IMG/VR virus record: IMGVR_UViG_3300032053_000009
Location: 18,630-82,629 of that record
Strand: one strand, 5' to 3'
DNA: 64,000 nt
Source of the DNA: a virus
A program made the position numbers and the translations under genes. Shown here in pieces: positions 13,980 to 36,571 of this stretch; the first letter of the stretch is position 1, and every line of letters begins with the position of its first letter. Below the pieces are notes generated by a model. That model was given only the letters and a program-made list of their open reading frames with translations. It was not told the DNA's origin and made no database searches.

Positions 13980-14406
13980 TACCATTATTGTTGACGCCAA
14001 CACGATTTTCAAGCTCATTAACGATGGCTTGCCCGATTGGGTTTGGCTTCACCTCTCCCTGCGTCAACGACGGTTCTGTGGACTGCACAAGCATCCGACG
14101 CATTGAGTTTTCAATCGCTCGCTCGGCAGCGTGCGGGGGCGACACATCCAATATCACGTTTCGCACTTCCTGAACAGCGACGCCCGTGTGCATAATGCGC
14201 TGAGTGTTTTCGATCAAGGCTTCCAAAACCCAAATGTGAACGCAATCAAATTTGTCAACAACTTCGTCACTTTGCGCTCTCTTGCCACGCACCTGGCGCC
14301 ACAACTGACATTTGCTTTGCGCTCCGGTCGCTGGATCGACTTCAAAATCGCTACGCCATCCGTCGATGCACCGTTTCCCGTTATAGGGACAGTTTTGATA
14401 GCTCAT
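13957..14406 (-). CDS. Hypothetical Cys-containing protein after fibre tip gene
   Basis: 149 residues; TAATG junction with the tip-fibre gene upstream. Cys residues at 6, 13 and 33 (NCPYNGKRCIDGW, SKCQLWR) suggest a small metal site. The middle is a helical region, and the C-terminus is Asn/Gly-rich (GVNNNGNGEQPNT). The sequence resembles small conserved proteins found near phage tail genes, but I cannot assign a function. Confidence 0.65.
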   Translation of the reverse strand: MSYQNCPYNGKRCIDGWRSDFEVDPATGAQSKCQLWRQVRGKRAQSDEVVDKFDCVHIWVLEALIENTQRIMHTGVAVQEVRNVILDVSPPHAAERAIENSMRRMLVQSTEPSLTQGEVKPNPIGQAIVNELENRVGVNNNGNGEQPNT

Positions 14407-16046
14407 TAGTTTTTCTGCGCCACAATCACGTCAATGTATTGAAGCGTGAACGTTCCCAAAATCGTATCCGTGCCAGGTGACGCAGCACTCGTCCCAGGAG
14501 ATTGAGCGTCGGTTGTGAGAGCTGTCGCACTCGTCCCAGGCGCCTGAGCGTCTGTCCCTGGCGCTGTTGCACCCGTAGCGGCGCCATGAGCATGAGCACC
14601 TTGTGAATCTGTGCCAGGACCTGCGCTACCCGTAGCTCCTGCATGGCTATGCGATCCATCATTCCCAATAGAATGTGTGTGGCTGTTCACAACATGAGAA
14701 TGCGAACCTTCAGGACTGGTCAACGCCCAAGAATATGTGGGACTTGTGAGTGATTGAGCAGTATAGGCAGAAAAAGTATGACCAGTGCAAGGATCGGCAA
14801 TAAACGATCTCGGATCGGGAGAGGCAGCGACGCCCCAAGGTCCTCGTTCCGGCCTATGATCATAAGCAGTATCGCTTATCTGAAAAGCCTCAGTGCCGCC
14901 AGTATTGCCAAACACAAACGATTCTTTGTGTTGGTGATCGGCAAACGTATCTGTGCCTGGCGCTGTTCCGCCACTTGCCCCAGTATGATTATGAGTTCCG
15001 TCCGCACCAATAGAGTGAGTATGCCCATTCACGGTATGAGCGTGTGTGCCATCCGAACTGACGCCATGCGTATGACTATTGACGGTATGGCTGTGGCTGT
15101 TCACGGTATGGCTATGACCAGTGATGCCGTGAGTATGGGCGTTCACGGTATGGCTGTGGCTGTTCACAGTGTGAGCATGAGCCAAATTGAATCCAGTTGA
15201 CATTGACGACGATCCGCCAACTCCACCCCCAGCACCGCTTACAATACGCAACGCCTTGTCATTATTGGTCACGAGCTGCGTCCAGCCGCTTGGTGGTGTC
15301 GCTTGATAGAAGACCTGAATCGTTCCGGTCTGATTAAAACCAATTCCAGACCCAACGAACGATGCCGTGTTTATACGATCCTGATTTACTGATCCAGCCA
15401 CCAAACGAGAACCATCCAATCCATAATCCGTTCCTCGTTGACGAAACGTAACAGGAAACGAACTCGATACCAGCATGGCGCTATCGACAAAGAACGTTCC
15501 GATCTGTAGGTCAGGAGCGAACGCTCGAAACACATTGACGTGGAGATAAGTGGCAGTGGTGGCAATGGTCTGCGTGACCGTCAACGTCTGATAAGCGCCG
15601 CCGCCAGGATGGAAGGCGCTAACAGTTTCCGTGATGCCGTCATCAATGGAGATTTTGACAGCGTTCGGCAGTGAGCTATAAACACGAACGGACAGAGAGA
15701 GCTTCAATCCCTTGAATTGTTGGTAATTGGAGAAGACTTGGTAAATCGCATACTGAACATCCGGCGACCCCGCTCCCGACACGACAAGTTTCATTGCATA
15801 ATTGCCGCTATCGACTTGAGCGCCAAGGTCAGTACGAGCTGCACGATTCACATTCACTGTTGGCAACGAGCTGCCAGCTTTAAGAACTTGCCACGAATCT
15901 AATGTGAAAGCACCATTGGCCGGATTCGTATAGACCGAACCATTGTTGGTTTGGTCTATTTCAAATCCACCATTTAGGAGGAGGTTTTCGTGTATCCCGT
16001 ATCCCTTAACGCTTCCGTCAGTACCAACTTCCCAGAATTGACCCAT
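14406..16046 (-). CDS. Tail fibre with galactose-binding-like domain and HxH-rich tip
   Basis: 546 residues, AAGGAG before the ATG. Residues 21-195 are one copy of the NGGFE/galactose-binding-like domain shared by this array. A collar-type segment follows (P-P-S-G-W-T-Q-L, near residue 250), then a long His-rich zone with ten HxH motifs (about 285-375) and a second with four (about 450-495), separated by a F-x-F-G-N-T-G-G insert. The end, L-Q-Y-I-D-V-I-V-A-Q-K-N, is typical of phage fibre tips. In T4 gp37 such HxH motifs in a trimer bind iron ions in a needle, so a metal-filled needle tip that touches the host receptor is the likely structure. It is the last fibre gene before the lysis genes. 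Confidence 0.85.
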   Translation of the reverse strand: MGQFWEVGTDGSVKGYGIHENLLLNGGFEIDQTNNGSVYTNPANGAFTLDSWQVLKAGSSLPTVNVNRAARTDLGAQVDSGNYAMKLVVSGAGSPDVQYAIYQVFSNYQQFKGLKLSLSVRVYSSLPNAVKISIDDGITETVSAFHPGGGAYQTLTVTQTIATTATYLHVNVFRAFAPDLQIGTFFVDSAMLVSSSFPVTFRQRGTDYGLDGSRLVAGSVNQDRINTASFVGSGIGFNQTGTIQVFYQATPPSGWTQLVTNNDKALRIVSGAGGGVGGSSSMSTGFNLAHAHTVNSHSHTVNAHTHGITGHSHTVNSHSHTVNSHTHGVSSDGTHAHTVNGHTHSIGADGTHNHTGASGGTAPGTDTFADHQHKESFVFGNTGGTEAFQISDTAYDHRPERGPWGVAASPDPRSFIADPCTGHTFSAYTAQSLTSPTYSWALTSPEGSHSHVVNSHTHSIGNDGSHSHAGATGSAGPGTDSQGAHAHGAATGATAPGTDAQAPGTSATALTTDAQSPGTSAASPGTDTILGTFTLQYIDVIVAQKN

Positions 16047-16075
16047 TGTTCAACTCCTTTCATTCGCCTTTCAAT

Positions 16076-16462
16076 TTAGAACTGTTGAAGATTGTAGTAA
16101 GACACTCCCTGCTTCGAGCACTCGTCAATGAGAATTGACACCGCCAATGCCGCTTGTGTGCCTGTGGTCGGAAGACCACGATCAGCAGCTTGCGCCTGTA
16201 CGTCGGCAAGGCTGAGCGTCATCATCTTCAGATAGTGAAGATATTGAGCAATTGGACCACCCGCCATCGGATACTGACTCACGGTATGGCACGTCTGACA
16301 CTCAACATTGATTTGCGTGTAATTGGTTAATCCATTTATGCCAACTGTGAAAGGCAAAGTGGACACGGCAATGTTTTGGCTGATGCCATCGTTGTGGACG
16401 ACATCAACTTTATACCCACCGACATCGGTCATGTTTGAAACGTAGACTGTTTGTACTGGCAT
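16076..16462 (-). CDS. Small protein with SAP-like motif, between fibre genes
   Basis: 128 residues, AGGAGG-type signal upstream of the ATG. Residues 83-113 read L-S-L-A-D-V-Q-A-Q-A-A-D-R-G-L-P-T-T-G-T-Q-A-A-L, which matches the SAP motif (helix, R-G-L-P-x-x-G-x-K-x-x-L, helix) usually involved in DNA or protein binding. The N-terminal 75 residues are beta-rich, with a VECQTCH pair. A virion-associated adaptor or accessory protein is possible. It is the only non-fibre gene within the array. Confidence 0.65.
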   Translation of the reverse strand: MPVQTVYVSNMTDVGGYKVDVVHNDGISQNIAVSTLPFTVGINGLTNYTQINVECQTCHTVSQYPMAGGPIAQYLHYLKMMTLSLADVQAQAADRGLPTTGTQAALAVSILIDECSKQGVSYYNLQQF

Positions 16463-16499
16463 TGTTATTCTCCTCCTATTAGAGAAATATGAGTCAAAA

Positions 16500-17432
16500 T
16501 TATGTTACCTCTGCCGTATAGCTGTAAGAGAGTTCAAGAACATTATAGGTTGTTTGCGAAGCGTTCCTGTCAAATCTGGTCGAACATCCTTGAACGTTTA
16601 CGCTGGCTGTGGTGGCAGTATAATTCGCCGTATCAACCAAAGAACCAGTCCCTTGTGTAGGGCTTTGCCAAAGCTGCGCCGTCGCCAACGACATAGTGAT
16701 AGTTGGAGTAGATGCTTTAGTTACCTTAAACGGATGAACGATACGTGCCGTACTCGATGAACTGGATTCTAACGCAACCACTGGATTGTATGAACCGGAA
16801 AGCTCATAATACCGTTGACACCGAGCCAGATCGTCCGCAATGACCAAAGGAACAAACGCTTGCGGCTCTGTCCCGACAACCATCATAGCTGAATCGGCAT
16901 AAAAAGTGCCAGTCTGGATGCCGCCACCTTCATTGCGCTGTCCAACGTAAATACCCAAAGCCGACGCATTAGATTCCACTGCGTATGTGATCGTTAAGGT
17001 TTCCCAATTCCCAGAACCTGAATGATAAGACGAGAAAGCGCCTGCGATACCAGTGTCGAGTTGAAGACGAACTTTGGTCATGGTTGTCTTCACTCGCACT
17101 GATGCCGAAATTATTTTACCTCGATAATAAATATAGTTCTCAACATAGTTAGCGACTGAGCAATTGCCAGCGGTGCCCGCATTCGTGACGGTGAGATTTA
17201 ACGAATAATTGCCGTTATCGACATTGCCAGCCCCAGGCTCTTGCGCAACAGTAAATGCCAATGCGCCAACACTGCTGCCGCTTGCCGCAAACCATCGGTC
17301 AGCGGTATACGTGAAATTAGCCGGACTGCTGAATGTCGTTCCTTTTTGCCAAATTTCAAAACCACCATTAACAAAAAGATTGGAATTGCCAATATTTTGC
17401 GCCACCCGTTCAAGTCCAGTAAGATAACTCAT
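16500..17432 (-). CDS. Tail fibre / receptor-binding protein, one NGGFE domain
   Basis: 310 residues from the ATG at 17430-17432, which overlaps the upstream stop as ATGA (TGGGGTG upstream). N-terminal 15 residues, then one galactose-binding-like domain (residues about 18-195): N-G-G-F-E-I-W-Q-K-G, T-A-D-R-W, N-Y-S-L, Y-H-S-G-S-G-N-W-E-T-L-T and F-Y-A-D-S-A-M-M. A linker L-A-R-C-Q-R-Y-Y-E then leads to a C-terminal beta domain of about 100 residues ending Y-T-A-E-V-T. The layout is shared by six of the array genes. Carbohydrate binding on the host surface is the expected role. Confidence 0.85.
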   Translation of the reverse strand: MSYLTGLERVAQNIGNSNLFVNGGFEIWQKGTTFSSPANFTYTADRWFAASGSSVGALAFTVAQEPGAGNVDNGNYSLNLTVTNAGTAGNCSVANYVENYIYYRGKIISASVRVKTTMTKVRLQLDTGIAGAFSSYHSGSGNWETLTITYAVESNASALGIYVGQRNEGGGIQTGTFYADSAMMVVGTEPQAFVPLVIADDLARCQRYYELSGSYNPVVALESSSSSTARIVHPFKVTKASTPTITMSLATAQLWQSPTQGTGSLVDTANYTATTASVNVQGCSTRFDRNASQTTYNVLELSYSYTAEVT

Positions 17433-19282
17433 TCTGCACCCCACTGAGTCCCATCATACGCAAGAATCACGGCTGCGTGATTGGTGGAAATAATTAAATT
17501 CGTGTTGCCATCAATGGTTCCGGCGGCTGGCTGAATAATGATCGGATTTGTCAACGCATCACCTTTTCCATCCTTAATAATAATCTGCTCGCCAATCAAA
17601 GGACTGGACATTAAATTAACAAACGTCGCTTCACTGGCTGCCTTGCGAACAATAATACGATAATCGGTAGACAAAACCGCTATCGCTCCCGAAGCCGTGA
17701 CAACTCGTGTCGTGCCAACCAAATTGGCAATCGAAATCGGATCAGACCCGCCAATATTATGAGTTGAAGCGTGTGCAAAATTTGGAGCCACACCCGTGCT
17801 TATAAACGAAACGTTTTCATTGAGCTGGCGACCTGTGAAGAACGTGACTGTGTTCTGATTCGTTTCCGTGTAATCAACGCCATTGACCATGATCAAGCCA
17901 CCGGAATAAACAACCAAACCACCCGTATTCATGGTATAGGAAAAATTCAAGGCAAAGACAGTCTGATTTGAGGTCGCAACAATTGTTTGACGCTGAAGTG
18001 CGGGAGCGACGACACCATTAGCAATGCGATAAAAAGCGTTCAGCGTGGCGTTGGAAGCAGGCGGCACAGTCATGGTAAAGCCTGGCAAAGACTGGCTTTC
18101 AAAAAAGTCTATGCCATTATCCAGCACCAATCCATTACGAGTCACCATCAGTGTTCCAGCCACAAACGTGGATGGCAGCGTATAGGTAATATTTGCTCCA
18201 TCCGTCGCCCCTGTAGGCAACACATAATCTTGTCGAAGTTCAGCCAACTGGTTGCCGAGAAAGGTAGCCTGAAGTTTATAGAACGCCAACAACGTGTCAT
18301 TCACCTGCGGTGCTACCGTCATTGTAAACCCTGGCTGAGTGGGCTGTTCTGCGTAGTCAACGCCACTCTTAAGCGTCAATCCATTTCTGGTGACAATTAA
18401 TGACCCAGGAACATAATTTTCAGCAAGCGTAAATATAGTATTGGCGCCATTCACCAATCCTGATGGTGTGATTTCAACCCGTGTAAATTCACCGCTGCCT
18501 TGAGTCACAATCCACGTCACGCCATTAAAAAATGAGAACGTCTGCACGTCTGTCCGGTATGCTGGCTGACCAGCAAGCGGACTGGATGGATAAGACGATG
18601 CTGAGCTGAATGGAATTCGGATGGGATCACTGCTCGTCCAGTTATGCGTTGATCCATGAGCCAAATTAGGCTGGATACCTGTGCCAATAAATTGGACGAT
18701 TTCACCAACTTGACGACCTGAAGAAAAGGTCACGGTCGTGCTGTTGGTTTCAGCATAATCAGTCGTGATCAGTTGCCTCAATCCAGTGGAATAAACTTCC
18801 AGACCACCGCTACCAGGCGTATAAGAAAAGTTCAGATTAAAAACTGTCTGACCAGCGGTAGCCACGAATGATTGAGCGACCTTGGTTGGTATGGTGGCGG
18901 TCGCTGTTAAGGAATAAAACGAGATGAGGATTGATCCGGTCAACGGTGCTGACGCCATCGTGAACCCTGGTATCCCAGGCTGCTCAAAAAAGTCCACTCC
19001 ATTTTGAAGCAGCAAACCGTTTCGAGACACCACCAACGAACCAGCATAAAATTGTTCAGGCAAGGTGTAGGTAATGTTGACGCCATTGACAGATCCGGTC
19101 GGGATAATGTTGTCACGTTCTAAAACGCCGCCACCGCTCGTGCCTTGAATCTGAGTCCACGTCACACCATCATAACCGTATAAAAGTTTCGTGTCGGTTT
19201 TGTAGAACAACCGACCGATCTTCAGATCGGTCTGAGGAAAGTTCAAACCTGAGATGTCAAGTTCTTGAGATAAAATACTCAT
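17429..19282 (-). CDS. Tail fibre with alternating beta repeats, no NGGFE domain
   Basis: 617 residues. It differs from its neighbours: three copies of a 70-residue unit (near residues 58-125, 268-340, 352-425) marked by G-A-N-I-T-Y-T-L-P, L-x-V-T-R-N-G-L, G-V-D-F and P-G-F-T-M. Two copies of a second unit (about 135-220 and 430-515) have Q-T-V-F-x-L-N-F-S-Y-T and D-Y-x-E-T-N, ending H-x-S-T-H-N-x-x-x-S-D-P-I. The C-terminus is a strand-rich domain with IIIKDGKGDA. Such units are common in phage fibre shafts. Its ATG follows directly after the stop codon of the upstream fibre gene, whose last codons supply AGAGGT. Confidence 0.8.
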   Translation of the reverse strand: MSILSQELDISGLNFPQTDLKIGRLFYKTDTKLLYGYDGVTWTQIQGTSGGGVLERDNIIPTGSVNGVNITYTLPEQFYAGSLVVSRNGLLLQNGVDFFEQPGIPGFTMASAPLTGSILISFYSLTATATIPTKVAQSFVATAGQTVFNLNFSYTPGSGGLEVYSTGLRQLITTDYAETNSTTVTFSSGRQVGEIVQFIGTGIQPNLAHGSTHNWTSSDPIRIPFSSASSYPSSPLAGQPAYRTDVQTFSFFNGVTWIVTQGSGEFTRVEITPSGLVNGANTIFTLAENYVPGSLIVTRNGLTLKSGVDYAEQPTQPGFTMTVAPQVNDTLLAFYKLQATFLGNQLAELRQDYVLPTGATDGANITYTLPSTFVAGTLMVTRNGLVLDNGIDFFESQSLPGFTMTVPPASNATLNAFYRIANGVVAPALQRQTIVATSNQTVFALNFSYTMNTGGLVVYSGGLIMVNGVDYTETNQNTVTFFTGRQLNENVSFISTGVAPNFAHASTHNIGGSDPISIANLVGTTRVVTASGAIAVLSTDYRIIVRKAASEATFVNLMSSPLIGEQIIIKDGKGDALTNPIIIQPAAGTIDGNTNLIISTNHAAVILAYDGTQWGAE

Positions 19283-21367
19283 TTATGTTACCTCTGCCGT
19301 CCACGCAAATTCAACATACAGTAGCTGATATGTGGATTGATCAGTAGACCGATTTGAGCCAACATAAAAGCTCTGCAACCCTGCCGTTGGCGTCAATGTC
19401 CAATTGGCTTGATCTGCCCCGCTCACGCCATTGCCTACCCCTGCCAGATAATACATCACAGCCGTGTAGCCTGAAATCGTTATTGTCGGCGCCGCCTGTT
19501 TAGCTGCAACGAATGGAATTGATTTATAAGAAATTGAATTTGTCGAAACGTTCCGTTGTATTGGCCACGTTCCTTCATAAACAGGACTGCTGACTTCGTA
19601 ATAACGCAAACATCTTTGCAGTTCGTCAGCCGGATGCTGAGGAACAAAAGCAATCGGAGTGGCGCCAGTGATCAGCATAATTGAATCTGTGTACATGGTG
19701 CCATTGGCTTGCGGTGATAAATATGAGCCAAATCCAACTTCGACTGTCGTCAACGATCCGCTCATAATCTGTGTCGCCGTCAACGTTTCCCAGTTGCCTG
19801 ATCCAGAATGATTAACGGAGAAAGTGGTCGTCACGCCATCCGATATATAAAGATGAAATAGATTTGCGGTTGATGTTTTCACTCTGGCGCTGACCGTCAT
19901 CGTCAGCCCTGCAAAATTTCTAAAATTCTCAAGTCGCTGATAAATCGCTATTTGGTTCCCGCCAACACTGCCTGTAATATCCAATTTTAACGACGCCCCG
20001 CCCTGATCAACAATTGAAGTTTCTTTAGACACCGTGAACGTTGGTGTTGAGTCTTTATACAGTCTCCATTTATCAGCCAGGTAAACAGCATTGGCAGGAC
20101 TCGAAAAAGACGTTCCTCGTTGCCAAATCTCCATTCCGCCGTTCGTTAGAATGTTGGTCGTGTTGTCTTGCAAATCCGACAAAGCTCCGCCCTTCACCTT
20201 ATCAAGTTCAGCAAGCGTCGGAGCGAAACTGATTGGATTGGTAGCCATCGTCAACATAGCAGAGTCGATATAAGTTGTTGACACCTTAACATCGCCAGCG
20301 CCATACATCCCAATCGAAATATCCAAGTTTGCCACAGACAGCGTTTTAACAGCAGTCAATGTCTGCCAGGTATTGTCGCCTGTGTGATATTGCGAATACG
20401 AAGGTCCATCAACCGAGTTGTACAAGCGGACACGTATGCAACTTGCTTGATTGGTTTTCACACGAACAGACAAGGACAGAGTTTTCCCGTTGTAAAATTC
20501 TGGATTGTCTAAATATTGAAGGATGACTATTCCTGTACATGACCCGACATTGGTCAGATTAAATTTCAAGCTATATAGACCAGAGTCAACGATAGACGCT
20601 TCTTGGCTGATTGAAAACGTTGGCGCCACGCCAAAGCTCGTTCGCCATTTATTTGCCAAAAACGTATTGCTAATCGGAGCCACGAACGAGGTTCCATAAT
20701 CCCACTGCTCAAACCCGCCGTTGGCGAGAATGTTCTGAGCATTGTTGCGTAAATCAGAAACTGCTCCGGCTTTAACTTTGTCAATTTCAGCGCTAATGGG
20801 TGTGAAATTTGAAGGATTGGAACTCACCACCAGCATAGCTGAATCAATATAAGTTGTGGCGATTTTCATGTCGCCAGAATCCGTACCGCCAATTTTTATC
20901 AGTAGTCGATTGGCTGTTGCTGATAAAGTTTTTGTGACGATAAGCGTTTGCCAAGTTCCATCGCCAGTGTGATAAGAGGAATACGTATTGGTCAATCCGT
21001 CATGGATCAGCATTCTGATTGAATTAGCAGTATTGGTTTTGATGCGGACAGACAAGCTCACGGTAGCGCCTATATAATTTTGCCAATCAACCACGTCTTG
21101 CGCCACATAGCATAAAAAGCTCCCGCTGGCTGCCGTCACGTCCATCTTCATAGAATAAACGCCAGAGTCAACATTGACGCTCTCTTGCGAGAAGTTGACA
21201 GTACCGCCGTTATGAAAATGAATCCATTTATCGTCAACGTATGAACCAGTGGGTGGATTAGGAAACGAAGTGCCCAAGCTCCATACTTCAAAGCCGCCAT
21301 TGACCAGCATATTTAACTGCGCTGGCGCCATTGCAAAATCTGTTCGAGGATCAAGTTGAGTTGTCAT
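19283..21367 (-). CDS. Tail fibre with three NGGFE domains
   Basis: 694 residues from the ATG 21365-21367 (TAATG with the upstream gene, AGAGGT eight bases earlier); the longer frame from 21388 lies inside the previous gene. Three galactose-binding-like domains follow one another, with signatures N-G-G-F-E-V-W, N-G-G-F-E-Q-W and N-G-G-M-E-I-W, each about 180-190 residues and each ended by Y-I-D-S-A-M-L (the third by Y-T-D-S-I-M-L). The first two are linked by helical D-K-V-K-x-G-A-x-S-D-L segments. A C-terminal beta head of about 100 residues ends F-A-W-T-A-E-V-T. The internal triplication points to avidity-based carbohydrate binding. Confidence 0.85.
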   Translation of the reverse strand: MTTQLDPRTDFAMAPAQLNMLVNGGFEVWSLGTSFPNPPTGSYVDDKWIHFHNGGTVNFSQESVNVDSGVYSMKMDVTAASGSFLCYVAQDVVDWQNYIGATVSLSVRIKTNTANSIRMLIHDGLTNTYSSYHTGDGTWQTLIVTKTLSATANRLLIKIGGTDSGDMKIATTYIDSAMLVVSSNPSNFTPISAEIDKVKAGAVSDLRNNAQNILANGGFEQWDYGTSFVAPISNTFLANKWRTSFGVAPTFSISQEASIVDSGLYSLKFNLTNVGSCTGIVILQYLDNPEFYNGKTLSLSVRVKTNQASCIRVRLYNSVDGPSYSQYHTGDNTWQTLTAVKTLSVANLDISIGMYGAGDVKVSTTYIDSAMLTMATNPISFAPTLAELDKVKGGALSDLQDNTTNILTNGGMEIWQRGTSFSSPANAVYLADKWRLYKDSTPTFTVSKETSIVDQGGASLKLDITGSVGGNQIAIYQRLENFRNFAGLTMTVSARVKTSTANLFHLYISDGVTTTFSVNHSGSGNWETLTATQIMSGSLTTVEVGFGSYLSPQANGTMYTDSIMLITGATPIAFVPQHPADELQRCLRYYEVSSPVYEGTWPIQRNVSTNSISYKSIPFVAAKQAAPTITISGYTAVMYYLAGVGNGVSGADQANWTLTPTAGLQSFYVGSNRSTDQSTYQLLYVEFAWTAEVT

Positions 21368-22293
21368 TAAGTTACCTCTGCTGTCCAATTAAATTGAATG
21401 GACAAAATGGGATACGTGGTTTGATCAGTGCTGCGACTTGAGTCTAACGAAAAACCGCTCACTGTTGGATTAGCGGTTTGATTTGACCAATTCGCACCAT
21501 CCGCTCCGCCATTGCCTGCACCAGTCGTTGGCGAATGAGCACGCACAGCGCTGACAATAGTGACGGTATTAGTTGGCACCGCTGCTTTTTTTGTGTTGAA
21601 CGGAACCCAAGTGATAACCTCATTTCCAGGCGTCGCATTACGATAGATAGGGATGAAAGTTGCCAAGAATCCATTTTCATAATAGCGCTGACACCGCACC
21701 AGTTCGTTGGCTGGATGTAGAGGAATAAAATTGATTAGCCCTGGGCTGACGGTCATCATCGCCGAATCAATATAAGTTGTGCTGACAAAACATGATGTAG
21801 GTAAGCCAAGAGTCACACGAAACGCTGTTGCGACAGCGCCAACGAGCGCAGATACCGTCAATATTTGCCAAGTGTTGTCGCCAGTATGGTACGACGAAAT
21901 CCAACTTGAAAATCCATCTGTGAGATAAATTATCGCCGCATTTGGCACATTGCATTTCATGGCAACAGAAACCGTCACGATCTTTCCTCTATATGATCGG
22001 GCGTTTTCTAAATCTTGAAAAATCGCCGCAGATGTTCCTGAGCCAACAACAGTAATGTCCAACTTCAATGACGTGGCTTCAGACTGGACAATAGATGTTT
22101 CTTTTGTGATTGAGAATGTTGGGCCGCCACCATAATTAGCTTGCCACTTATCAGCCGTGTACGCCGCAATAGCTGGATTAGAGAACGGTCCTGAGCCACG
22201 CTGCCATTGCTCAAAACCACCGTTCACAAGCAGATTGATCTGTGGCGGCAACGTCATTGAAAAATCAAGATTTGGATTCAGTTGAGTTGTCAT
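21367..22293 (-). CDS. Tail fibre / receptor-binding protein, one NGGFE domain
   Basis: 308 residues from the ATG 22291-22293 (TAATG junction, AGAGGT upstream). The 15-residue leader M-T-T-Q-L-N-P is shared with the neighbours. One galactose-binding-like domain (N-G-G-F-E-Q-W-Q-R-G ... Y-H-T-G-D-N-T-W-Q ... Y-I-D-S-A-M-M) is followed by R-C-Q-R-Y-Y-E and a C-terminal head ending F-N-W-T-A-E-V-T. The head differs strongly from those of neighbouring copies, as expected if it carries the specificity. Confidence 0.85.
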   Translation of the reverse strand: MTTQLNPNLDFSMTLPPQINLLVNGGFEQWQRGSGPFSNPAIAAYTADKWQANYGGGPTFSITKETSIVQSEATSLKLDITVVGSGTSAAIFQDLENARSYRGKIVTVSVAMKCNVPNAAIIYLTDGFSSWISSYHTGDNTWQILTVSALVGAVATAFRVTLGLPTSCFVSTTYIDSAMMTVSPGLINFIPLHPANELVRCQRYYENGFLATFIPIYRNATPGNEVITWVPFNTKKAAVPTNTVTIVSAVRAHSPTTGAGNGGADGANWSNQTANPTVSGFSLDSSRSTDQTTYPILSIQFNWTAEVT

Positions 22294-23252
22294 TAAGTTA
22301 CCTCTGCTGTCCAAGTAAAAATAAAATCTAAAATGTTGTACGTGGTTTGATCCCCGCCAGTTCTTTGACCGTAAATAGTAAACGCATCTTTATTGGTCGG
22401 AGTGGAGATCGCACTCCAATTAGCTTTATCGTCTGCACTGTTGGCATTACCGCTCGTAGGTAAATAACCCATGTAATAATTTACCTTCGTTATCGTCACG
22501 GTCGGTACAGCATATTTTTGAACACAAAATCGTTGAAGAACTTGGTAATAATTTTGAGAAGTGTATCGTTGCAAAGGGGCGACTGTTTCATTATTGCTCT
22601 CTGTTTTTTCATAATAGCGCTGACACCGCACCAAATCATCAGCAGGGTGCATGGAAATAAAATTAATTGGTACATTGCCAACCGTCAACATCACTGAGTC
22701 GATATAAGTTGTCGAAACAACAGTCGCTGCCAACCCGCCCAAATGACTTAAGCAACCAATAGCAGCGGTAAGCTCCCCATTAGAACCTACAGCCGATACC
22801 GTGGTTGTCAATGTAAGAGTTTCCCATCCCGTTCCTGCATTCGAGGAAGAAAATCTCCAACTCCCCGCATCAGCAAAACCAATCTGAATTTTATTTGCGA
22901 CAGAGCATTTGACTCTTGCGGAAATACTGATAACTCGCCCATTTAATGATCCGCCTATAAGCCCTTCCAAGGACTGAATAACCCCTATGCCGAGTCCGCC
23001 TGCCACCGTCACATCCAGTTTCAGGCTGTACGGGAACACATCATAATTGCCCGCACCCCCTTCTCTGGCGATTGTAAAGGTCGGAGATCCATTCTTGGTG
23101 CAATACCAACCATCTGCTGTGTAAACTCCAAGAGCGGGTGAACTAAAAGAGGTTCCTCTCTGCCAAAAAGCAAATCCACCATTAATTAACATATTGACCT
23201 GCGGTGCCAGCGTCACGCTAAGATCTTGATCAGGAATTAATTTTGTTGTCAT
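22293..23252 (-). CDS. Tail fibre / receptor-binding protein, one NGGFE domain
   Basis: 319 residues, start M-T-T-K-L. One galactose-binding-like domain has N-G-G-F-A-F-W-Q-R-G, Y-T-A-D-G-W-Y and T-Y-I-D-S-V-M-L. R-C-Q-R-Y-Y-E and a C-terminal head ending F-T-W-T-A-E-V-T follow. The preceding gene ends with an unrelated C-terminus, yet it still supplies TTAGAGGT in its last codons, just upstream of this ATG. Role as for the other array members. Confidence 0.85.
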   Translation of the reverse strand: MTTKLIPDQDLSVTLAPQVNMLINGGFAFWQRGTSFSSPALGVYTADGWYCTKNGSPTFTIAREGGAGNYDVFPYSLKLDVTVAGGLGIGVIQSLEGLIGGSLNGRVISISARVKCSVANKIQIGFADAGSWRFSSSNAGTGWETLTLTTTVSAVGSNGELTAAIGCLSHLGGLAATVVSTTYIDSVMLTVGNVPINFISMHPADDLVRCQRYYEKTESNNETVAPLQRYTSQNYYQVLQRFCVQKYAVPTVTITKVNYYMGYLPTSGNANSADDKANWSAISTPTNKDAFTIYGQRTGGDQTTYNILDFIFTWTAEVT

Positions 23253-23253
23253 G

Positions 23254-24192
23254 TCACAAAACCTCTAAAAGCAAATATTCGGATGTAGTTGACGAAAACA
23301 ATTCTGCTGCGTGAAACGCTGTCAATGGACTACCCGATACGCTGCTACCAGCAAAATATCCACTATGATTCGATTCCGCTGCAAAACCCAATGCTCCAAT
23401 AACCACCAAGCCGCCAGCCGGATTGCCCGTTTTCCAATTCGTTGAACTAAAAACTGTGGCTGTCGGCACGGCTGCCATTGGCACAAAATAGTGAATTGGA
23501 AATTCGCACGCTGACGTAGATAGAGCTATGCCGATTGCCACATCTTGATTAATTGCCCCGCCACCAAATTTTTGGCAATAACGCAAACACCGTGAAAAAT
23601 TATCAGCAGGTTGCAACGGCACAAATGATAACGATTGGCTACCAACACATAGCATGACATTATCAATATAAATCGTAGCCACATTAACGTCGCTGGAAAT
23701 CATACCGATCTCCAAATATAATTGGCTGGTTGCTGAATAAACAGTTTGCGTGGCGGTCAAGGTCTGCCAGGTATTATCTCCGGTATGATAATCCGACGGA
23801 GTGTTAAAGATACTATCCCGCAATCTGATCTTTGCCGTGTTAGCGACATTGCATTTTATTCTCGCCGACGCCGATACGGTCAAGCCAGCATACGCTGAAG
23901 CGTTTTCCACGAATCCAACAATGCGACACACGGTGGCGCCGCCAACCGCCGTCACGTTCAATTTAAGAGAATATGAACCCTTACCATCAATAATGCTTGA
24001 CTCTTGGCTAATGGTAAATGTTGGAGACCCAATTAGCGACACTTGCCACTTATCTGCCGTGTACGCATTAATGCTTGGATTAGAAAACGATATTCCTCTC
24101 TGCCACACTTCCATTCCTCCATTATTAAGAAGATTGAGAAATGGCGAAAACGCATTTGGATCTAAAGCCCGATTAACTACAGTCGTTCCCAT
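23254..24192 (-). CDS. Tail fibre / receptor-binding protein, variant C-terminus
   Basis: 312 residues from the ATG 24190-24192 (TAATG; GAGGTG in the last codons of the upstream gene). One galactose-binding-like domain (N-G-G-M-E-V-W-Q-R-G ... Y-H-T-G-D-N-T-W-Q) and R-C-L-R-Y-C-Q, then a head unlike the others, ending T-S-E-Y-L-L-L-E-V-L rather than W-T-A-E-V-T. This is the array member whose head looks most recently or most completely exchanged. Confidence 0.82.
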   Translation of the reverse strand: MGTTVVNRALDPNAFSPFLNLLNNGGMEVWQRGISFSNPSINAYTADKWQVSLIGSPTFTISQESSIIDGKGSYSLKLNVTAVGGATVCRIVGFVENASAYAGLTVSASARIKCNVANTAKIRLRDSIFNTPSDYHTGDNTWQTLTATQTVYSATSQLYLEIGMISSDVNVATIYIDNVMLCVGSQSLSFVPLQPADNFSRCLRYCQKFGGGAINQDVAIGIALSTSACEFPIHYFVPMAAVPTATVFSSTNWKTGNPAGGLVVIGALGFAAESNHSGYFAGSSVSGSPLTAFHAAELFSSTTSEYLLLEVL

Positions 24193-26333
24193 TAAGTCAC
24201 CTCGGCTACCCAATTAAATTCTATCGACGCCAGCGGATACGTGGTTTGATCACCTGTACGTGTTAAACCAACATAAAACCCATTTACTCCAACGCCTTTG
24301 CCAGCCGTCCAATTTGCTGTATCGCTGCTACTACTGTTGCCAGTCGTTGCCAAGTGCAACAAAACAACAGAAAGAGATGATAATGTTACCGTTGGCGTCG
24401 CAACTTTCGTGACACGAAACGGAATAGAAAAATAAGCACAGTAATTCACGCCAGCGTTGCGACTAATTGGCTCCACGGTTTCAAATATTGGACTCGACAC
24501 TTCATAATATCGTTGGCACCGAATCAAATCTTGATATGGTGCGACAGGTTGATAAGGAGCTGGTGAAGCGTTTTGCACCACCATCACTGCCGTGGCATCA
24601 ACGTAACACACCGCATTTGGCGCAAAAATCCCAAAAGCCACAGTCGAAGTGCTGTCATCTATAAAAGTTGTGACTGTCAACAAATGCCAATTCCCATCAC
24701 CTGGATGATAAGCGCTTCTATAAATACTTGGTGAGCTGGCTGCTCCTTGTAACAAAATTCCGCAACCATTTGAATTGGAACGAACATAGGCTGAAAACGT
24801 AATAGGCTTTGATCGGTGAGAAGCAGCCGTATCAAAATACTGAATAGCAAATCGAGCATCGTTAAGAACTCCTGTCCCGACCACCGTGCATTGAAAGCGC
24901 ATCGCATATGGACTTTGCGGATCTGGATAGGCTGTTCCAAGCCTACTGATCGTAAACGTTGGCTGAACCGTGGCAGTGTTATATTGATTTGTCCATCGGT
25001 CGGCTGTTTCGGCGCCATTGGCTGGATTGCTAAATGTTGTACCTCGTTGCCACCATAAAAATCCGCCATTGTCAGCCAAGTTATCGACCCCATGCCCGTA
25101 CTGAGTATAAAATGAATAGGATCGCATAGAGTCATTGTCTTGGCTTTCAGACACGTATGGAATTGAGACAGGTCCAATATTTGCTATTGCGTTATCGACA
25201 TAGACAACGCCTGTGCCAGGTACGTTCACATCATACCAGCCAGCTCTAAAACAAAGATAATTAGCGAGGGCGTAAACAGATAACGTCACCGACAACGTTT
25301 CCCATCCCCCACCGCCCGAATGCGCATTTGAATATTTAGTCGTGTTTAGATCTGTTATCTGTAATTTGAAACCAGCCAAGGTTGTTTTAACTCGCATCGC
25401 ATAAGAAACGGTACGATTACGAAACGAATTTCCATAAGTGGTTTGTATGATGCCAGCTTGCGTGGTTCCAGATCCAGCGCTGGTGACGCTAATATACAGC
25501 GCATTACGACCCGTCAATGGATCGAAATTCACTGTCTCTTGACCATAAGTAACAGTCGGAATGGAGCTTGTGGTGGTAGCTTCAGCAACCCACCCATCAG
25601 TGACAGACATATATCCTGATGGCTGTGGATTAACGCAAATATCACCCCGATTCCAAATTTCAAAACCGCCATTAATAAGAATGTTTCGAGTGTTCCCTTG
25701 AACAATAGACGAGTATCCCGTCTTCAACAATTCAACTTCAGCATGATCAGGCTCAAAAGTCGGAATTGTAGCGCCCAACATCAACATGGCCGAATCAACA
25801 TAAAATATTCCATTAGCTGGCGCAGCTCCGCCCGCCGTAGAATCAAAACCGACATGGACAGATAACCCAACTCCGCCAGGCGTAAATTTTACGCTTAGGG
25901 TCTGCCAAGTGTTATCGCCAGTATGGGCAGTGGACAAAATGGTTCCGCCAGACCAAAACGCCATCACACACACTCCGGCAACATTGCTTTTTACCCGCAT
26001 CGAAAGAGAAAGCTGTTTTCCATTCAAAGAAGCAGAATTGTTGGAAGTAATAGGAGTTTGACCAACACGCAAACGTGTTCCGCTGCCAGCGTTGGTGATA
26101 TTGACTTTCATGGAATAAGCGCCATTGTCAATAGTGGTTGCTTCCTGAGAAATCGTATACGCCGTTACGCCAACTACTCGTACTGCCCACCCATCGGCTG
26201 CGTTTTGCTGATCAGGAGGATTGGTGAAAAGTGTCCCACCATTCCATTGTTCAAACCCGCCATTGGTTAAGAGGTTCTGATATGGGCTATTGACCGGATC
26301 TAACGCTCTTGATGGTACGAATGTCTCACTCAT
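24192..26333 (-). CDS. Tail fibre with three NGGFE domains
   Basis: 713 residues from the ATG 26331-26333 (GAGGAT upstream; the 19 extra codons of the longer frame lie inside the previous gene). Three galactose-binding-like domains are marked by N-G-G-F-E-Q-W-N, N-G-G-F-E-I-W-N-R-G and N-G-G-F-L-W-W-Q-R-G. Each carries the A-H/Y-H-x-G-D/G-x-W motif. The C-terminal head of about 100 residues ends F-N-W-V-A-E-V-T. It is the second triple-domain fibre and is only distantly similar to the one at 19283-21367, suggesting separate or old triplications. Confidence 0.85.
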   Translation of the reverse strand: MSETFVPSRALDPVNSPYQNLLTNGGFEQWNGGTLFTNPPDQQNAADGWAVRVVGVTAYTISQEATTIDNGAYSMKVNITNAGSGTRLRVGQTPITSNNSASLNGKQLSLSMRVKSNVAGVCVMAFWSGGTILSTAHTGDNTWQTLSVKFTPGGVGLSVHVGFDSTAGGAAPANGIFYVDSAMLMLGATIPTFEPDHAEVELLKTGYSSIVQGNTRNILINGGFEIWNRGDICVNPQPSGYMSVTDGWVAEATTTSSIPTVTYGQETVNFDPLTGRNALYISVTSAGSGTTQAGIIQTTYGNSFRNRTVSYAMRVKTTLAGFKLQITDLNTTKYSNAHSGGGGWETLSVTLSVYALANYLCFRAGWYDVNVPGTGVVYVDNAIANIGPVSIPYVSESQDNDSMRSYSFYTQYGHGVDNLADNGGFLWWQRGTTFSNPANGAETADRWTNQYNTATVQPTFTISRLGTAYPDPQSPYAMRFQCTVVGTGVLNDARFAIQYFDTAASHRSKPITFSAYVRSNSNGCGILLQGAASSPSIYRSAYHPGDGNWHLLTVTTFIDDSTSTVAFGIFAPNAVCYVDATAVMVVQNASPAPYQPVAPYQDLIRCQRYYEVSSPIFETVEPISRNAGVNYCAYFSIPFRVTKVATPTVTLSSLSVVLLHLATTGNSSSSDTANWTAGKGVGVNGFYVGLTRTGDQTTYPLASIEFNWVAEVT

Positions 26334-26340
26334 TTTATCC

Positions 26341-27825
26341 TCACGACGTTGCCGTCCAATTAAACGCCATACGCACAGGACGTTGCCCACCTATGGTCTT
26401 GCTGGCTCTCAACGAAAAGCCACGCAACAAATGATCGGTGATGCCTAAAAGCAAAGTGTAGGCCGCCACAGCGTTTGTTATCCCCAAACCGTCTTCATAG
26501 ATCTGCACGTTCGTTAATGCTATCACGGGCGCCGATGCCTTGACCACATTAAAATCAATGTCATCATCAATATAATAGGTCGTGTCGTCGGAAGCGCCAT
26601 ATTTTGAAAAATCATTGTAACCCACTTCAAAGTATCGCTGGCTCCGATCCCAATCTTCCGCAGGACTGAGCGCTGCGAACGTAAGTGGATCAGTGTTTTG
26701 AACAGCCATAGCGCCATCGACGTAACACGTTTGGCTGGCGTTGATTTCAATCGAAAACGTGAGTGACGTGATCCCAACCGCAGGCGTGCGTGTGACGGAA
26801 AGCGTCTCATATGACCCCGTGCCTGTGTTGGCTGCCGATGACGTGGAGCCATTGCTGTCCGTGATTTTGGCGACAATGCTGGTGGCTGCACCAGGTCGCA
26901 CCCGAATCGTGAACGCCACCGCACGATTCTGATAATCCAAATAGTTTTCAATGGTCTGCGACAGCGATACCACGCCAGACGAAATAGTAACCACAGCCTT
27001 CAATGCCGCAGGCGAGTTGTCAACAAACGTCATCTCTTTTGAAATTGACGCCGTGTTGCTGCCGAGCGCCAGCGTCCAGCGATCTGCGGTAAAGCCATTG
27101 GTCGTGAACGCTCCGCCGCCACGCTGCCAAATCGAGAATCCGCCATTGGTAAGAAGATTGATCGCTGCTGAGCCACCCACATTTGAAATCCGAATCTTGT
27201 TACCAACGGTCAGGGTCTCAAGAAGGATATTGGTGCCGCCCTCCAAGCTAACGTTATCGGTCAACGTCAGTCCGCCCACTTGGGCTAACGTTTTAACCAC
27301 TTGACCAGAAGCTATCTTGTCAGAGGTGACGGCATTCACAGCCAATTTTGAATTGGTAATGGCTGAATCAGAAACGTCTGTTTGAACAATGGTTCCAGGG
27401 GCGATTTTGTCAGATGTGACCGAATCGGGCGCCAGCTTGATGTTGGTGATGGCATAGTTTTCAATCTGGGTAATTCCCACCGCTCCGGTCGCCAGCTTGG
27501 ATTGAATTACAGCGGTGTCAGAAATGTTCGTGCTCGTGACAGCATTCACCGCCAACTTCGGATTAGTAACAGCCGAGTTTGACAGCTCAAGAGTATCGAC
27601 AGCGCTGGGCGCTATGTCAACGGCAATAACTGTCCCGTCAGCGATCTTGTCCGACGTAACGGAACTGGGAGCCAGCTTATCGTTGGTGACAGCCAGATCT
27701 CTAATCTTGCCCGTGATAACGGATTGGTCTTCAAGCTGTGTCAGACCAACCGCACCGTTAGCGATAACGGGCTGCGTTACCGATTGGCTGGCGTACTCTT
27801 GTGTTTGAACAAATGTTCTGGACAT
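26341..27825 (-). CDS. Tail fibre: beta-repeat shaft plus NGGFE domain
   Basis: 494 residues; AAGAGGT follows the upstream stop codon and precedes the ATG. Residues 1-190 are shaft repeats of the form A-V-T-x-x-K-L/I-A-x-x-A-V, also present in the 1,406-residue fibre next door. Residues 225-395 are one galactose-binding-like domain (N-G-G-F-S-I-W-Q-R-G-G). The C-terminal head ends A-F-N-W-T-A-T-S. The N-terminus M-S-R-T-F-V-Q-T is nearly the same as that of the neighbouring long fibre (M-S-R-T-F-I-Q-T), so both may attach to the same baseplate site. Confidence 0.85.
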   Translation of the reverse strand: MSRTFVQTQEYASQSVTQPVIANGAVGLTQLEDQSVITGKIRDLAVTNDKLAPSSVTSDKIADGTVIAVDIAPSAVDTLELSNSAVTNPKLAVNAVTSTNISDTAVIQSKLATGAVGITQIENYAITNIKLAPDSVTSDKIAPGTIVQTDVSDSAITNSKLAVNAVTSDKIASGQVVKTLAQVGGLTLTDNVSLEGGTNILLETLTVGNKIRISNVGGSAAINLLTNGGFSIWQRGGGAFTTNGFTADRWTLALGSNTASISKEMTFVDNSPAALKAVVTISSGVVSLSQTIENYLDYQNRAVAFTIRVRPGAATSIVAKITDSNGSTSSAANTGTGSYETLSVTRTPAVGITSLTFSIEINASQTCYVDGAMAVQNTDPLTFAALSPAEDWDRSQRYFEVGYNDFSKYGASDDTTYYIDDDIDFNVVKASAPVIALTNVQIYEDGLGITNAVAAYTLLLGITDHLLRGFSLRASKTIGGQRPVRMAFNWTATS

Positions 27826-27835
27826 TATTTACCTC

Positions 27836-32056: not shown

Positions 32057-32068
32057 AATCTCTCCTCA

Positions 32069-32836
32069 TCACATTGGGTTATAGCTGGCCAAGATTTTTG
32101 ATGTCGCCGCCGGAGCGAACGTAAATGAAATCCCATTCACTCCGAACAGGGTATAGTCCTCAGTCGCCCCAGAATTTCGCAATACGCCGTCAACATAAAT
32201 CTCCTCTGAACCAGAAACAAAATTGTCAGGCGTCGTGAACAAGGCATTTAACCCATCAGGCGCTGGTGAAAGCGATTGCCTAAATTTTCTATTAATTGAG
32301 CCACCGTTCACATCAAAAATGAACCTATTATTTGGAGAATCTTGCGTGATAGTGATGTTGGCGCCCTCAATTAAAATGATGTCGCCCTGCAAACCAACGA
32401 TGGCGCCTATAATGGACAAGGTATTGACGCCAGCCGCCACAGAGCCGCCAGGACCTCCCAAGAATGAACGTGAGTCAACAACAGAGATAACGTTCGTTGC
32501 TCCGGTATAAACACGAGCAAGAGGCACAGAAAGAGTTGGAAACCCAGTAGTATTTACGGTGATGACGCCGATGTTGTTGACAAAAATAAAATTGGTCGTG
32601 TTGGCGGTCATCGTCTTCGTGGCTTGACCGAGGAACGGAAACACGGCGCCGCCAATCTGACATTGACCAGGAGCAACGACGACGTTCAGCCCACCGCCCG
32701 ACGTAACCTGCAACGCTATATTGACTGCTGACAGCGAGTCGGCAATATCAAAATTGCGACGTAAAGGAGAGTCCCAATTTTGGTCGCCGTGAGCTGGCTT
32801 TTCGTATCCTGCGTTTGGTGTAAATGTGCTTGCCAT
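32069..32836 (-). CDS. Fibre-associated baseplate protein
   Basis: 255 residues. The N-terminus, F-T-P-N-x-G-Y-E-K-P-A-H-G-D-Q-N-W-D-x-P, is a pattern common in phage tail and fibre-adaptor proteins. The last 60 residues (E-I-Y-V-D-G-V-L-R-N-S-G, F-T-F-A-P-A-A-T-S-K-I-L-A-S-Y) are homologous to the C-terminus of the 1,406-residue fibre encoded just downstream. It may be a short fibre or an adaptor anchoring that fibre. Its ribosome binding site is modest. Confidence 0.7.
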   Translation of the reverse strand: MASTFTPNAGYEKPAHGDQNWDSPLRRNFDIADSLSAVNIALQVTSGGGLNVVVAPGQCQIGGAVFPFLGQATKTMTANTTNFIFVNNIGVITVNTTGFPTLSVPLARVYTGATNVISVVDSRSFLGGPGGSVAAGVNTLSIIGAIVGLQGDIILIEGANITITQDSPNNRFIFDVNGGSINRKFRQSLSPAPDGLNALFTTPDNFVSGSEEIYVDGVLRNSGATEDYTLFGVNGISFTFAPAATSKILASYNPM

Positions 32837-32843
32837 AGTATAG

Positions 32844-34211: not shown

Positions 34212-34221
34212 TCTCTCTTCC

Positions 34222-35340
34222 TTATGGTGTGAAGATAAATTCCGCTTTCGTTTCTGCTGGCATCAATTCCAGTATAAGCTCTTTCAAAAGATTTTCATCA
34301 ATCGTCAAACCAAAAATATTATCCACCGTGATCATAAACGCATGAGCTTTCTCGGCTTTGCTGTACGTGCTGATGATGATGGTTAGGCTGGGATGGATGG
34401 AATCTTGGATGTAATAATGCGGTCGGTTGGGTTCTAAATCAGACGGACTGAAAATTCTCCAACCAGTCAAATCCTTGATTTCAACGATCTTTGGCGTTTG
34501 GCAGGTGAAGATTCTAATGATGTCGATGAGCGCTTGATACGTGCCGGAAGTTTCGTAGGCGCCGATAAGCTGAATCAATTGCTCTCGATATTCTTGGAGA
34601 GTTTGCGTACTTTGGGCAAAGTTATACAAAGCGCCAAAATTATTATATAGCGCTTCGTCACGCACGTCGGTAAGATAAATATCCCGCTTAGCCCTTAACG
34701 CCTCAAATTGCATTTCCTCAATTTGACGAGAATGCTCCTTGGCTACAAGGAACGTATAAGTGCTATCGGTATCCTTCGTGTAGACGTTCTCATCAGGATA
34801 AGTTGTGTAAATTCGGTTTGTAGTTTCTTTTTTCTGACTCGAATCCCTTACAAACGTCTGGGTGTCCGTCCAAGGACTTTCCAGCGTTTGGCTCAAAACC
34901 TTGACCCTCCAATAATATTGAATCGTTTGGGCTTCGGCTCTTATCGGAAAAGCTATTTCATAACCTGTTACAAGTTGACCCTTGGTAAATCCTACCAAAC
35001 CACGGGTGCCTCCTGCAAAGCCTCCGATGCCAAATCCGTCCTCCCCGAACCCCCCAATACCGAATCCTGTGACGGTATCATCGCCTGAAAAGCACCTTAA
35101 ATTAGGGCTGTTAAAATTTGGGTCTGTGTCTATGCAAAGCTCGTAATCATATTGCGAAATCGGGGCAGGCAGTCCGCCCAGACAATCGTTGCAGCACGCC
35201 AATGTCCAGAAGAAGACATACGAATTCTCCGACGTGCCCAAATAAGACCGTGGATTAAGCACGGTCGGAACAGCAATTTTAGGAGCAAATTGCGTGTTAA
35301 ACAGGCTCGTATTAAATAAAGATGTGTTAAATAAAGCCAT
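34222..35340 (-). CDS. Baseplate protein, tail protein I-like position
   Basis: 372 residues from the ATG 35338-35340 (TGAGGT formed by the previous stop). The longer frame from 35451 lies in the previous gene. The N-terminus has a tandem L-F-N-T-S-L-F-N-T-S-L-F-N-T stretch. A fibronectin-III-like region follows (Y-D-Y-E-L-C-I-D-T ... Y-Y-W-R-V-K-V ... S-P-W-T), with a Gly-rich loop G-I-G-G-F-G-E-D-G-F-G inserted. The C-terminal half is helical (L-T-D-V-R-D-E-A-L-Y-N-N-F-G ... Y-R-E-Q-L), like the P2 gpI-type baseplate proteins that follow J in gene order. Confidence 0.65.
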   Translation of the reverse strand: MALFNTSLFNTSLFNTQFAPKIAVPTVLNPRSYLGTSENSYVFFWTLACCNDCLGGLPAPISQYDYELCIDTDPNFNSPNLRCFSGDDTVTGFGIGGFGEDGFGIGGFAGGTRGLVGFTKGQLVTGYEIAFPIRAEAQTIQYYWRVKVLSQTLESPWTDTQTFVRDSSQKKETTNRIYTTYPDENVYTKDTDSTYTFLVAKEHSRQIEEMQFEALRAKRDIYLTDVRDEALYNNFGALYNFAQSTQTLQEYREQLIQLIGAYETSGTYQALIDIIRIFTCQTPKIVEIKDLTGWRIFSPSDLEPNRPHYYIQDSIHPSLTIIISTYSKAEKAHAFMITVDNIFGLTIDENLLKELILELMPAETKAEFIFTP

Positions 35341-35347
35341 CAATACC

Positions 35348-36571
35348 TCAAGTAGTTTCCGCTGTCCATAAAATGTTAGCTCTGTAAGTCCCAGCCACAT
35401 AACTGGAACGATGCAAACGAAACGAGAACTCATCCACCGACACATTCTCATTAGCCTGCACCGACCAATTCACACTATCGTCAGAATCTGACGACGTTAA
35501 TACGCTCAGCCCTGATGAAGTGAGAGTTGGAATGTTTGCCTTGGTGACTTTGAAAACTCGTGGCGTCCACAAAAATGAAGTCGTTGATATGCTATACAAC
35601 CCAGCCGATGTTATCCGTCCAGCCTCATAATAACGCTGGCAGCGAATGAAATCGTCTGCAATGCGAGTCGGCTGATAATCAACAGCCTTCGATCCCAACA
35701 CCAGAACAGCGGAATCGAGATAAAACGTGCTGAGCGTTGGCGCCACGTCAACGTACCCCACACCAACAATTAAATTCGTTGATCCTGCCGGAACCGTGTA
35801 CGAACACGTCAAGCGTTGAAAATTTGATCCGCCCGCATGAGCCACTGATAATGACGTGGAGATCGTGCCATTGGTAATGAACGCTTTAATGCCTGGGTTA
35901 GTGGAGTTGACCCAAATCGAAAAAGAGACGGTCTTGCCAATGAAGTCATAATAATTTTCAATTGATTGTCGAACGGAAAACGTCGTCGCTCCGCCAACAG
36001 AGCCGATCTGACATTGAAGAGAATACTGACCCAAATTAAGAAAAAGCGCTGTTGAGTTGCGAGACACGAGAGTGACTGGCGCCCCTGTATAATTCATCTT
36101 CCACTTATCTGCCGTGTAAGCATTATTGGCTGGGCTGGCAAATATGCCACCCCGCTGCCATATTTCAAATCCAGAGTTCACAAGCAGGTTTGGGAACGCA
36201 TTGACACGAATACCATTCACAAGATCGTCTTCAATAGCTTTGATTTCATCTTTGAGAGCGTTGTGGTGCATGGCAATGTATTCGATGCCGATGAGCTTGC
36301 CGCTGTCATGGGAAACCGCAAGCGTGTTGTCGAAACCACGAATGATTCCGGTCAGATTATTGCCAAATATGCCTGAGTAATAAACCACCTCGTCTTCAAT
36401 CGTGGCTACCCCTGCTATCGGAAACCCAACCGTGGTCAACAAAGCGATTCCGCTTCCCCCCGTGTTGTCGCCCGTGGCGCCCATAGCGCCATTAATTGCC
36501 GTTTGCAAATTGTTGACGCCAGTTAAAAGCTCAGCATCAGTCGCTACGCTGTTCGGATATAGTGCAGTCAT
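35348..36571 (-). CDS. Baseplate-linked fibre with one NGGFE domain
   Basis: 407 residues, TAATG junction with the gp25-like gene. The first 125 residues are not fibre-like. They contain V-G-F-P-x-A-G-V-A-T-I-E-D-E-V-V-Y-Y-S-G and G-I-I-R-G-F-D-N-T, a pattern found in phage baseplate and tail proteins. Residues 128-305 are the galactose-binding-like domain (N-S-G-F-E-I-W-Q-R-G-G), followed by R-C-Q-R-Y-Y-E and a head ending L-W-T-A-E-T-T. It carries the array domain inside the baseplate gene block, 8 kb away from the rest. Confidence 0.8.
   Translation of the reverse strand: MTALYPNSVATDAELLTGVNNLQTAINGAMGATGDNTGGSGIALLTTVGFPIAGVATIEDEVVYYSGIFGNNLTGIIRGFDNTLAVSHDSGKLIGIEYIAMHHNALKDEIKAIEDDLVNGIRVNAFPNLLVNSGFEIWQRGGIFASPANNAYTADKWKMNYTGAPVTLVSRNSTALFLNLGQYSLQCQIGSVGGATTFSVRQSIENYYDFIGKTVSFSIWVNSTNPGIKAFITNGTISTSLSVAHAGGSNFQRLTCSYTVPAGSTNLIVGVGYVDVAPTLSTFYLDSAVLVLGSKAVDYQPTRIADDFIRCQRYYEAGRITSAGLYSISTTSFLWTPRVFKVTKANIPTLTSSGLSVLTSSDSDDSVNWSVQANENVSVDEFSFRLHRSSYVAGTYRANILWTAETT

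Follow-up and report, generated by a model that had tools for sequence, protein, structure and literature searches.

An enlarged family of domain-head adhesin genes in the baseplate and tail-fibre module of an uncultured contractile-tailed phage

The adhesin genes and the fold of their products

The window analysed here, a stretch of 64,000 nucleotides, covers bases 18630-82629 of a 146,629-base record of an uncultured virus of bacteria (IMG/VR record IMGVR_UViG_3300032053_000009). Nine of its genes, named below by their lower coordinate and referred to as adhesin genes, carry between them 13 copies of a domain of ~180 residues (Table 1). This count and placement, put forward in a preliminary description of the DNA, were borne out by a search of the window genes with a single domain copy (from gene 21367) as the query, in which the weakest copy scored E = 9e-13, and by searching the 146,629-base record in full, which returned the same 13 copies and no further ones. 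Leave-one-out profiles gave 106-215 bits for each omitted copy, compared to -1.4 to 0.7 for shuffled copies, and pairwise identity among the 13 copies is 22-47%.

In eight of the nine genes the last domain, and only the last, is followed by an RCQRYYE-type segment and a head of ~100 residues. The preliminary description had assigned a uniform RCQRYYE and a head to every gene; this holds in kind for the eight but not for 14406, and the segment reads RCLRYCQ in 23254 and RSQRYFE in 26341. The phrog_4492 (tail fibre protein) profile matches eight of the proteins over domain and head (E from 1.9e-16 to 8.3e-48) and gives no match to the product of 14406, which ends in a collar-like, histidine-rich region with many H-x-H repeats (as read from the sequence). 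The conserved gene ends that had been described are likewise present in most genes, as WTAEVT or a close form in 16500, 19283, 21367, 22293, 24192 and 35348 and, roughly, in 26341, but not in 23254, which has a different head and ends in LLLEVL.

Counted from the first listed start codon, only 16-25 residues precede the domain in the products of 16500, 21367, 22293 and 23254, and we therefore regard these as compact domain-head proteins rather than long shafted fibres. Some genes probably start at an ATG lying inside a TAATG overlap with the previous stop, rather than at the listed TTG (Table 1). A repeat shaft is present in 26341 alone among the nine and is common to this gene and the long fibre gene 27836. 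The latter contains ~30-residue repeats (VTxxKIA... type) and many 60-90 nt direct repeats; because the shaft repeats are common to both, 26341 looks chimeric, with a 27836-type shaft joined to a domain-head unit.

All nine adhesin genes share a strand, are separated by short gaps or overlap slightly, and at several junctions meet as TAATG stop-starts, so that co-translation is likely. The cluster is part of the baseplate and tail-fibre module, and the phage has a contractile tail: profile matches identify two baseplate wedge proteins (E = 1e-35 and 1.5e-8) and a tail sheath protein (E = 4e-38), and it is the sheath gene that indicates this type of tail.

Table 1. Adhesin genes and associated features of the window (coordinates are window positions)
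Feature	Position	Strand	Description
Adhesin gene 9	14406..16046	-	one domain (15459-15986); no RCQRYYE head
Adhesin gene 8	16500..17444	-	one domain (16830-17384); type-A head (16503-16829)
Structural gene, 617 aa, left border of variable zone	17429..19282	-	without the domain; conserved, about 50-58% in relatives
Adhesin gene 7	19283..21388	-	domains 20792-21325, 20216-20734 and 19619-20158; type-A head (19286-19618); likely start ATG 21367
Gene-junction repeat	21348..21426	-	end of adhesin gene 6 and start of adhesin gene 7
Adhesin gene 6	21367..22314	-	one domain (21700-22248); type-A head (21370-21699); likely start ATG 22293
Adhesin gene 5	22293..23252	-	one domain (22632-23204); type-A head (22296-22631)
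Adhesin gene 4	23254..24213	-	one domain (23602-24144); type-C head (23257-23601); likely start ATG 24192
Adhesin gene 3	24192..26390	-	domains 25734-26285, 25152-25685 and 24564-25082; type-A head (24195-24563); likely start ATG 26333
Adhesin gene 2	26341..27825	-	~220-residue repeat shaft; one domain (26656-27165); type-D head (26344-26655)
Long repeat-rich tail fibre, 1406 aa	27836..32056	-	no domain copy
Adhesin gene 1	35348..36571	-	~125-residue N-terminal part; one domain (35657-36190); head (35351-35656)
Baseplate wedge subunit (gp25/W-like)	36571..37329	-	adjoins gene 35348
Baseplate wedge subunit (phrog_6)	37329..38774	-	
Tail sheath protein	47130..48488	-	

A structure model built from a shallow alignment reached a predicted local distance difference test score (pLDDT) of 76.7, and a deeper AlphaFold model, from 60 sequences, a mean of 86.8, with values mostly of 93-98 over residues 21 to 170 (the domain). 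Both models match structures of carbohydrate-binding module (CBM) families CBM4-2, CBM16 and CBM22 with a template modelling score (TM-score) of about 0.6-0.75 over the target (0.67-0.75 for the deeper model against CBM4-2 and CBM16), and a profile search gave a weak match to a laminarinase CBM4 (1gui, E = 1e-3). A Pfam scan found no CBM family at E up to 1. The models thus support the galactose-binding-like beta-sandwich fold claimed for the domain, closest to CBM4/16/22, while a sugar-binding role itself is putative. The likeness to CBM families 4, 16 and 22 is one of fold, by structure comparison, and of that weak profile match; identity is only 11-19%, and no Pfam CBM model reaches its cut-off. 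Each of the nine proteins has one or three such CBM4/16-like sandwich copies. The RCQRYYE segment is modelled in a helix (residues 179-189), followed by six strands that make up the head, and many phage tail fibres in a viral structure library have the same domain-head fold. The domain-head model is a beta-sandwich, and a Pfam scan of the nine adhesins found no beta-helix depolymerase family.

Variation among relatives and in the heads

Two IMG/VR records, G001 (144 kb) and G005 (90 kb), are syntenic with this virus across the tail module, their proteins being roughly 43-78% identical to its own. With gene 32069 as the query, G001 alone was returned, and with the sheath alignment G001 and G005 alone; searches of IMG/VR for the domain family gave 2 loci with a single protein and 80 loci with each of the alignments. 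The relatives do not carry the same nine genes with unvarying heads, a finding that would have spoken against the preliminary description, but fewer genes and different heads: 13 domain copies in nine genes in this virus compare with eight in six in G001 and five in four in G005. Most of the difference falls in the zone between 17429 and 26341, its right border, which in this virus contains nine copies spread over five adhesin genes, as against five copies in three genes for G001 and two copies in a single gene for G005.

Genes 14406, 26341 and 35348 have orthologues in both relatives, with domain identities of 53-63% (53-59% for 14406), and 16500 has no orthologue at its position in G001 or G005. 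The type-C head of 23254 has a counterpart in a gene of G001. The type-D head of 26341 is 65-80% conserved across all three viruses, which argues that not every adhesin takes part in head exchange. An unlike adhesin with BclA_C/C1q-like C-terminal matches lies inside the same variable zone in G001 (L161:6676-8610), so that the zone takes in unrelated adhesins too.

Heads were said to differ while the domain is conserved. Within this genome the two are similar in identity (means of 35.7% for last domains and 31.3% for heads, or 36.0% and 37.1% in the subset of six type-A heads), and the idea of heads hypervariable inside this genome was rejected. Across viruses the claim stands. Among 125 family proteins, median head identity is 32-33% whether the domains are about 45%, 53% or 61% identical, and the columns of an alignment of 60 proteins have a mean entropy of 1.86 bits in the domain and 2.78 bits in the head. 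Further to that, all four different-contig pairs with 83-93% identical domains (three of them from one trio, which leaves two independent cases) have heads only 34-46% identical. At the DNA level, contigs L049 and L056 are mostly 80-98% identical over the domain, mostly 39-68% (near background) over the head and 100% downstream; their N-terminal parts differ as well, which makes the domain a conserved island in a mosaic gene.

Between gene 35348 and its orthologues, identity is 57-61% in the domain but 30-31% in the head. The type-A profile, built from the other adhesins of this genome, gives the 35348 head 23.3 bits and the type-B profile gives it 6.4 bits, while the heads of the orthologues score 36.5 and 22.8 bits with type B and 2.9 and 8.9 bits with type A. 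Type-A heads were found in three other viral contigs as well (74-82 bits). We conclude that head exchange does, in general, appear to occur between viruses at the level of the family, with no sign of it within this genome.

Domain DNA and gene-junction DNA are both conserved and would offer such exchange homology on either flank of the head. The 79-base junction repeat listed in Table 1, at the 21367/19283 junction, is 82% identical to positions 22274-22352, at the 22293/21367 junction, and 71% to 24173-24251, at a third junction; the products of the genes with 82%-identical junction DNA are only ~44% identical. The record encodes RecA; RecT and ERF annealing proteins were searched for and not found in it, though it may be incomplete.

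Weighing the explanations

With moderate confidence, we suggest that the locus as a whole is best explained as a co-directional family of paralogous adhesins that has grown by duplication and whose heads have been replaced by homologous recombination. The nine adhesins would be made together and several of them mounted together on the virion, which could confer avidity and a wide range of binding. Expansion and contraction of the set would be concentrated between 17429 and 26341, through tandem gene duplication and in-frame domain duplication. Heads would be replaced over evolutionary time, with the conserved domain and helix supplying homology upstream and the conserved gene end downstream. 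Most likely the domain acts in weak sugar binding or as a spacer, and the head is a receptor-specific tip; that the adhesins are displayed jointly on virions, bind sugar and assemble as trimers is our inference.

Several observations weigh against this explanation. Within the window the heads are about as similar to each other as the last domains are, and the two similarities are uncorrelated (r = 0.17, p = 0.28), though there are too few genes for a conclusion from head-versus-adjacent-domain correlation. The approximately unbiased (AU) test, on a short head alignment, gave p = 0.24 and so did not reject simple vertical descent of the 35348 head, for which reason head exchange at this gene is graded as suggestive. 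The similarity of the junctions could partly reflect translation constraint. Finally, the close relatives found number just two, and each of the three records is possibly incomplete.

More tentatively, the domain and RCQRYYE helix may amount to a standard adaptor, widespread among phages, that carries receptor-binding heads of largely unrelated kinds, these heads being exchanged between unrelated phages by homologous recombination. In the present virus the adaptor would have been developed into an enlarged operon whose adhesins are compact and for the most part lack a shaft; some have three domains, and they would be presented jointly to form a tip with several specificities. We hold this broader proposal to be possible, on balance doubtful.

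A different role for the domain is somewhat unlikely but deserves consideration, namely that of a mere structural spacer or docking module which has lost sugar binding, so that the heads hold all specificity and copy number sets the distance between head and baseplate. Residues conserved across relatives are indeed mostly small or structural (N, G, P, and the W of WQRG and of ADxW) and include no obvious platform of exposed aromatic residues in common (judged from conservation, not from computed exposure), the lack of a Pfam CBM at cut-off fits as well, and the three-domain genes would simply gain length. Nevertheless, the nearest folds are polysaccharide-binding CBMs, and 13 copies as diverged as these exceed the needs of one spacer design.

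We consider it rather unlikely that no head exchange takes place and that heads merely diverge faster than domains by point mutation under receptor selection. This would agree with the common sequence that heads retain (30-46% identity, with a conserved A-x-P-T core), with the outcome of the AU test and with the lack of any sharp mosaic visible inside the window. It is difficult to reconcile with the L049/L056 pair, in which head DNA drops to near background while the domain before it is conserved and the flank after it identical, with head types A and C being common to distant viruses, and with a 35348 head of another type than those of its orthologues.

The paralogues could also be structural parts, each with its own fixed position (baseplate, collar, neck), rather than a repertoire for receptor binding, as the fixed places of the orthologous 14406, 26341 and 35348 in all three viruses and the baseplate wedge genes next to 35348 might indicate; the other six genes vary in number and presence between the relatives, unlike parts of that kind, and we regard this reading as improbable. 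The exchangeable cassette proposed in the preliminary description is retained only as slow exchange between viruses and not as a programmed switch that selects or mutates heads (a diversity-generating retroelement, invertible shufflon or site-specific cassette system), which is mostly refuted and most improbable in spite of the repeated conserved gene ends beside variable heads: reverse transcriptase (PF00078), serine resolvase/invertase (PF00239) and tyrosine recombinase (PF00589) are absent from the 146,629-base record (positive controls worked; the record may be incomplete), all adhesin genes are on one strand, and heads differ over their full length with no near-identical copies.

Genome setting and known systems

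The sheath protein is distantly similar (27-28% identity) to sheaths of actinobacterial myoviruses. The best domain matches in bacterial genomes (L170 and L171, 39% and 35%) are in Chloroflexi metagenome-assembled genomes, a weak host hint; both lines were judged insufficient for naming a host. No Rfam elements or tRNAs were found in the window. A promoter scan picked out 38 promoter-like sites where shuffled sequence gave 27.5 (sd 4.9), and terminators were not in excess; these results were too unspecific for transcription units to be delimited.

Among the neighbouring genes, the open reading frame 34222-35451 overlaps 35348 only through an upstream ATG; because orthologues align from residue 38 (MALFNTSLF), its start is probably at 35340, with no overlap. 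A small module (GSLxVxRNGLxLxxGxDxxE-like) recurs in structural proteins nearby, in 17429-19282, in 32069-32836 and in the C-terminus of 27836. Directly downstream of the fibre cluster lies a glucosaminidase-type endolysin gene (13076-13840), followed by small genes that may be holins. The adjacent paralogues 50542-51186 and 51171-51839 have their first ~70 residues in common, and G001 likewise has two; the 820-aa product of 56156-58618, within the structural block, contains a region resembling glycosyltransferases (phrog_13126, E = 1e-31).

The three viruses provide a natural series of adhesin gain and loss (13, 8 and 5 copies) at one syntenic spot, and there are DNA-level cases of a differing fibre head on a conserved domain. 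Together these allow the adaptor-and-head idea to be tested throughout a tail-fibre family that is very common, and they could aid the prediction of phage host range from sequence. What they reveal is no new kind of system but an enlarged version of a known way to vary virus attachment.

The preliminary description had called the set unusually large. In terms of copies this is so: most IMG/VR records examined have one, and 13 is the highest number, with G001 next at eight. Among cultured phages, a tblastn search with a consensus hit 350 records at 642 places, and each record listed had one or two of them. In terms of genes it is less so, as a more sensitive profile found seven domain-head genes in each of the cultured Synechococcus cyanophages S-N03 and MC09, six of them in a run beside baseplate wedge genes, and phages with 11 and 14 receptor-binding fibres have been published (PMC6872550, PMC9700779). 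Nine genes with 13 copies are the top of the range of this family, the three-domain genes are its most distinctive members, and the kind of system is already known.

The closest likeness in architecture is to the tail fibre proteins of PHROG 4492, in which the same domain is followed by the same head (profile positions ~770-1085). That profile describes a 1096-residue protein with the domain-head unit as its C-terminal third, whereas most genes here are without an N-terminal shaft and two hold three domain copies. In gene arrangement, S-N03 and MC09 (Kyanoviridae) resemble this virus in having domain-head genes, most of them in a run near baseplate wedge genes; they differ in their distant sequence (E about 1e-8 to 1e-20), in one domain per gene, in longer N-terminal parts and in the interleaving with other fibre genes. 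The Klebsiella phages PhiK64-1/RaK2, with 11 receptor-binding proteins, and phiKp24, with 14 fibres, likewise have large related sets in one virion module; those sets carry beta-helix depolymerases, of which none was seen in the nine adhesins here. Domain duplication inside a fibre gene is likewise known from Xanthomonas phage OP1, where it accompanied a change of host range (PMC2248197), and from T4, also with a host-range change according to Tetart 1996 as that paper cites it. The OP1h fibre is the fourth-best fold match to our model. The duplicated units of OP1 and T4 are small and tied to host range by experiment, whereas those described here are whole domains of 180 residues identified from sequence.

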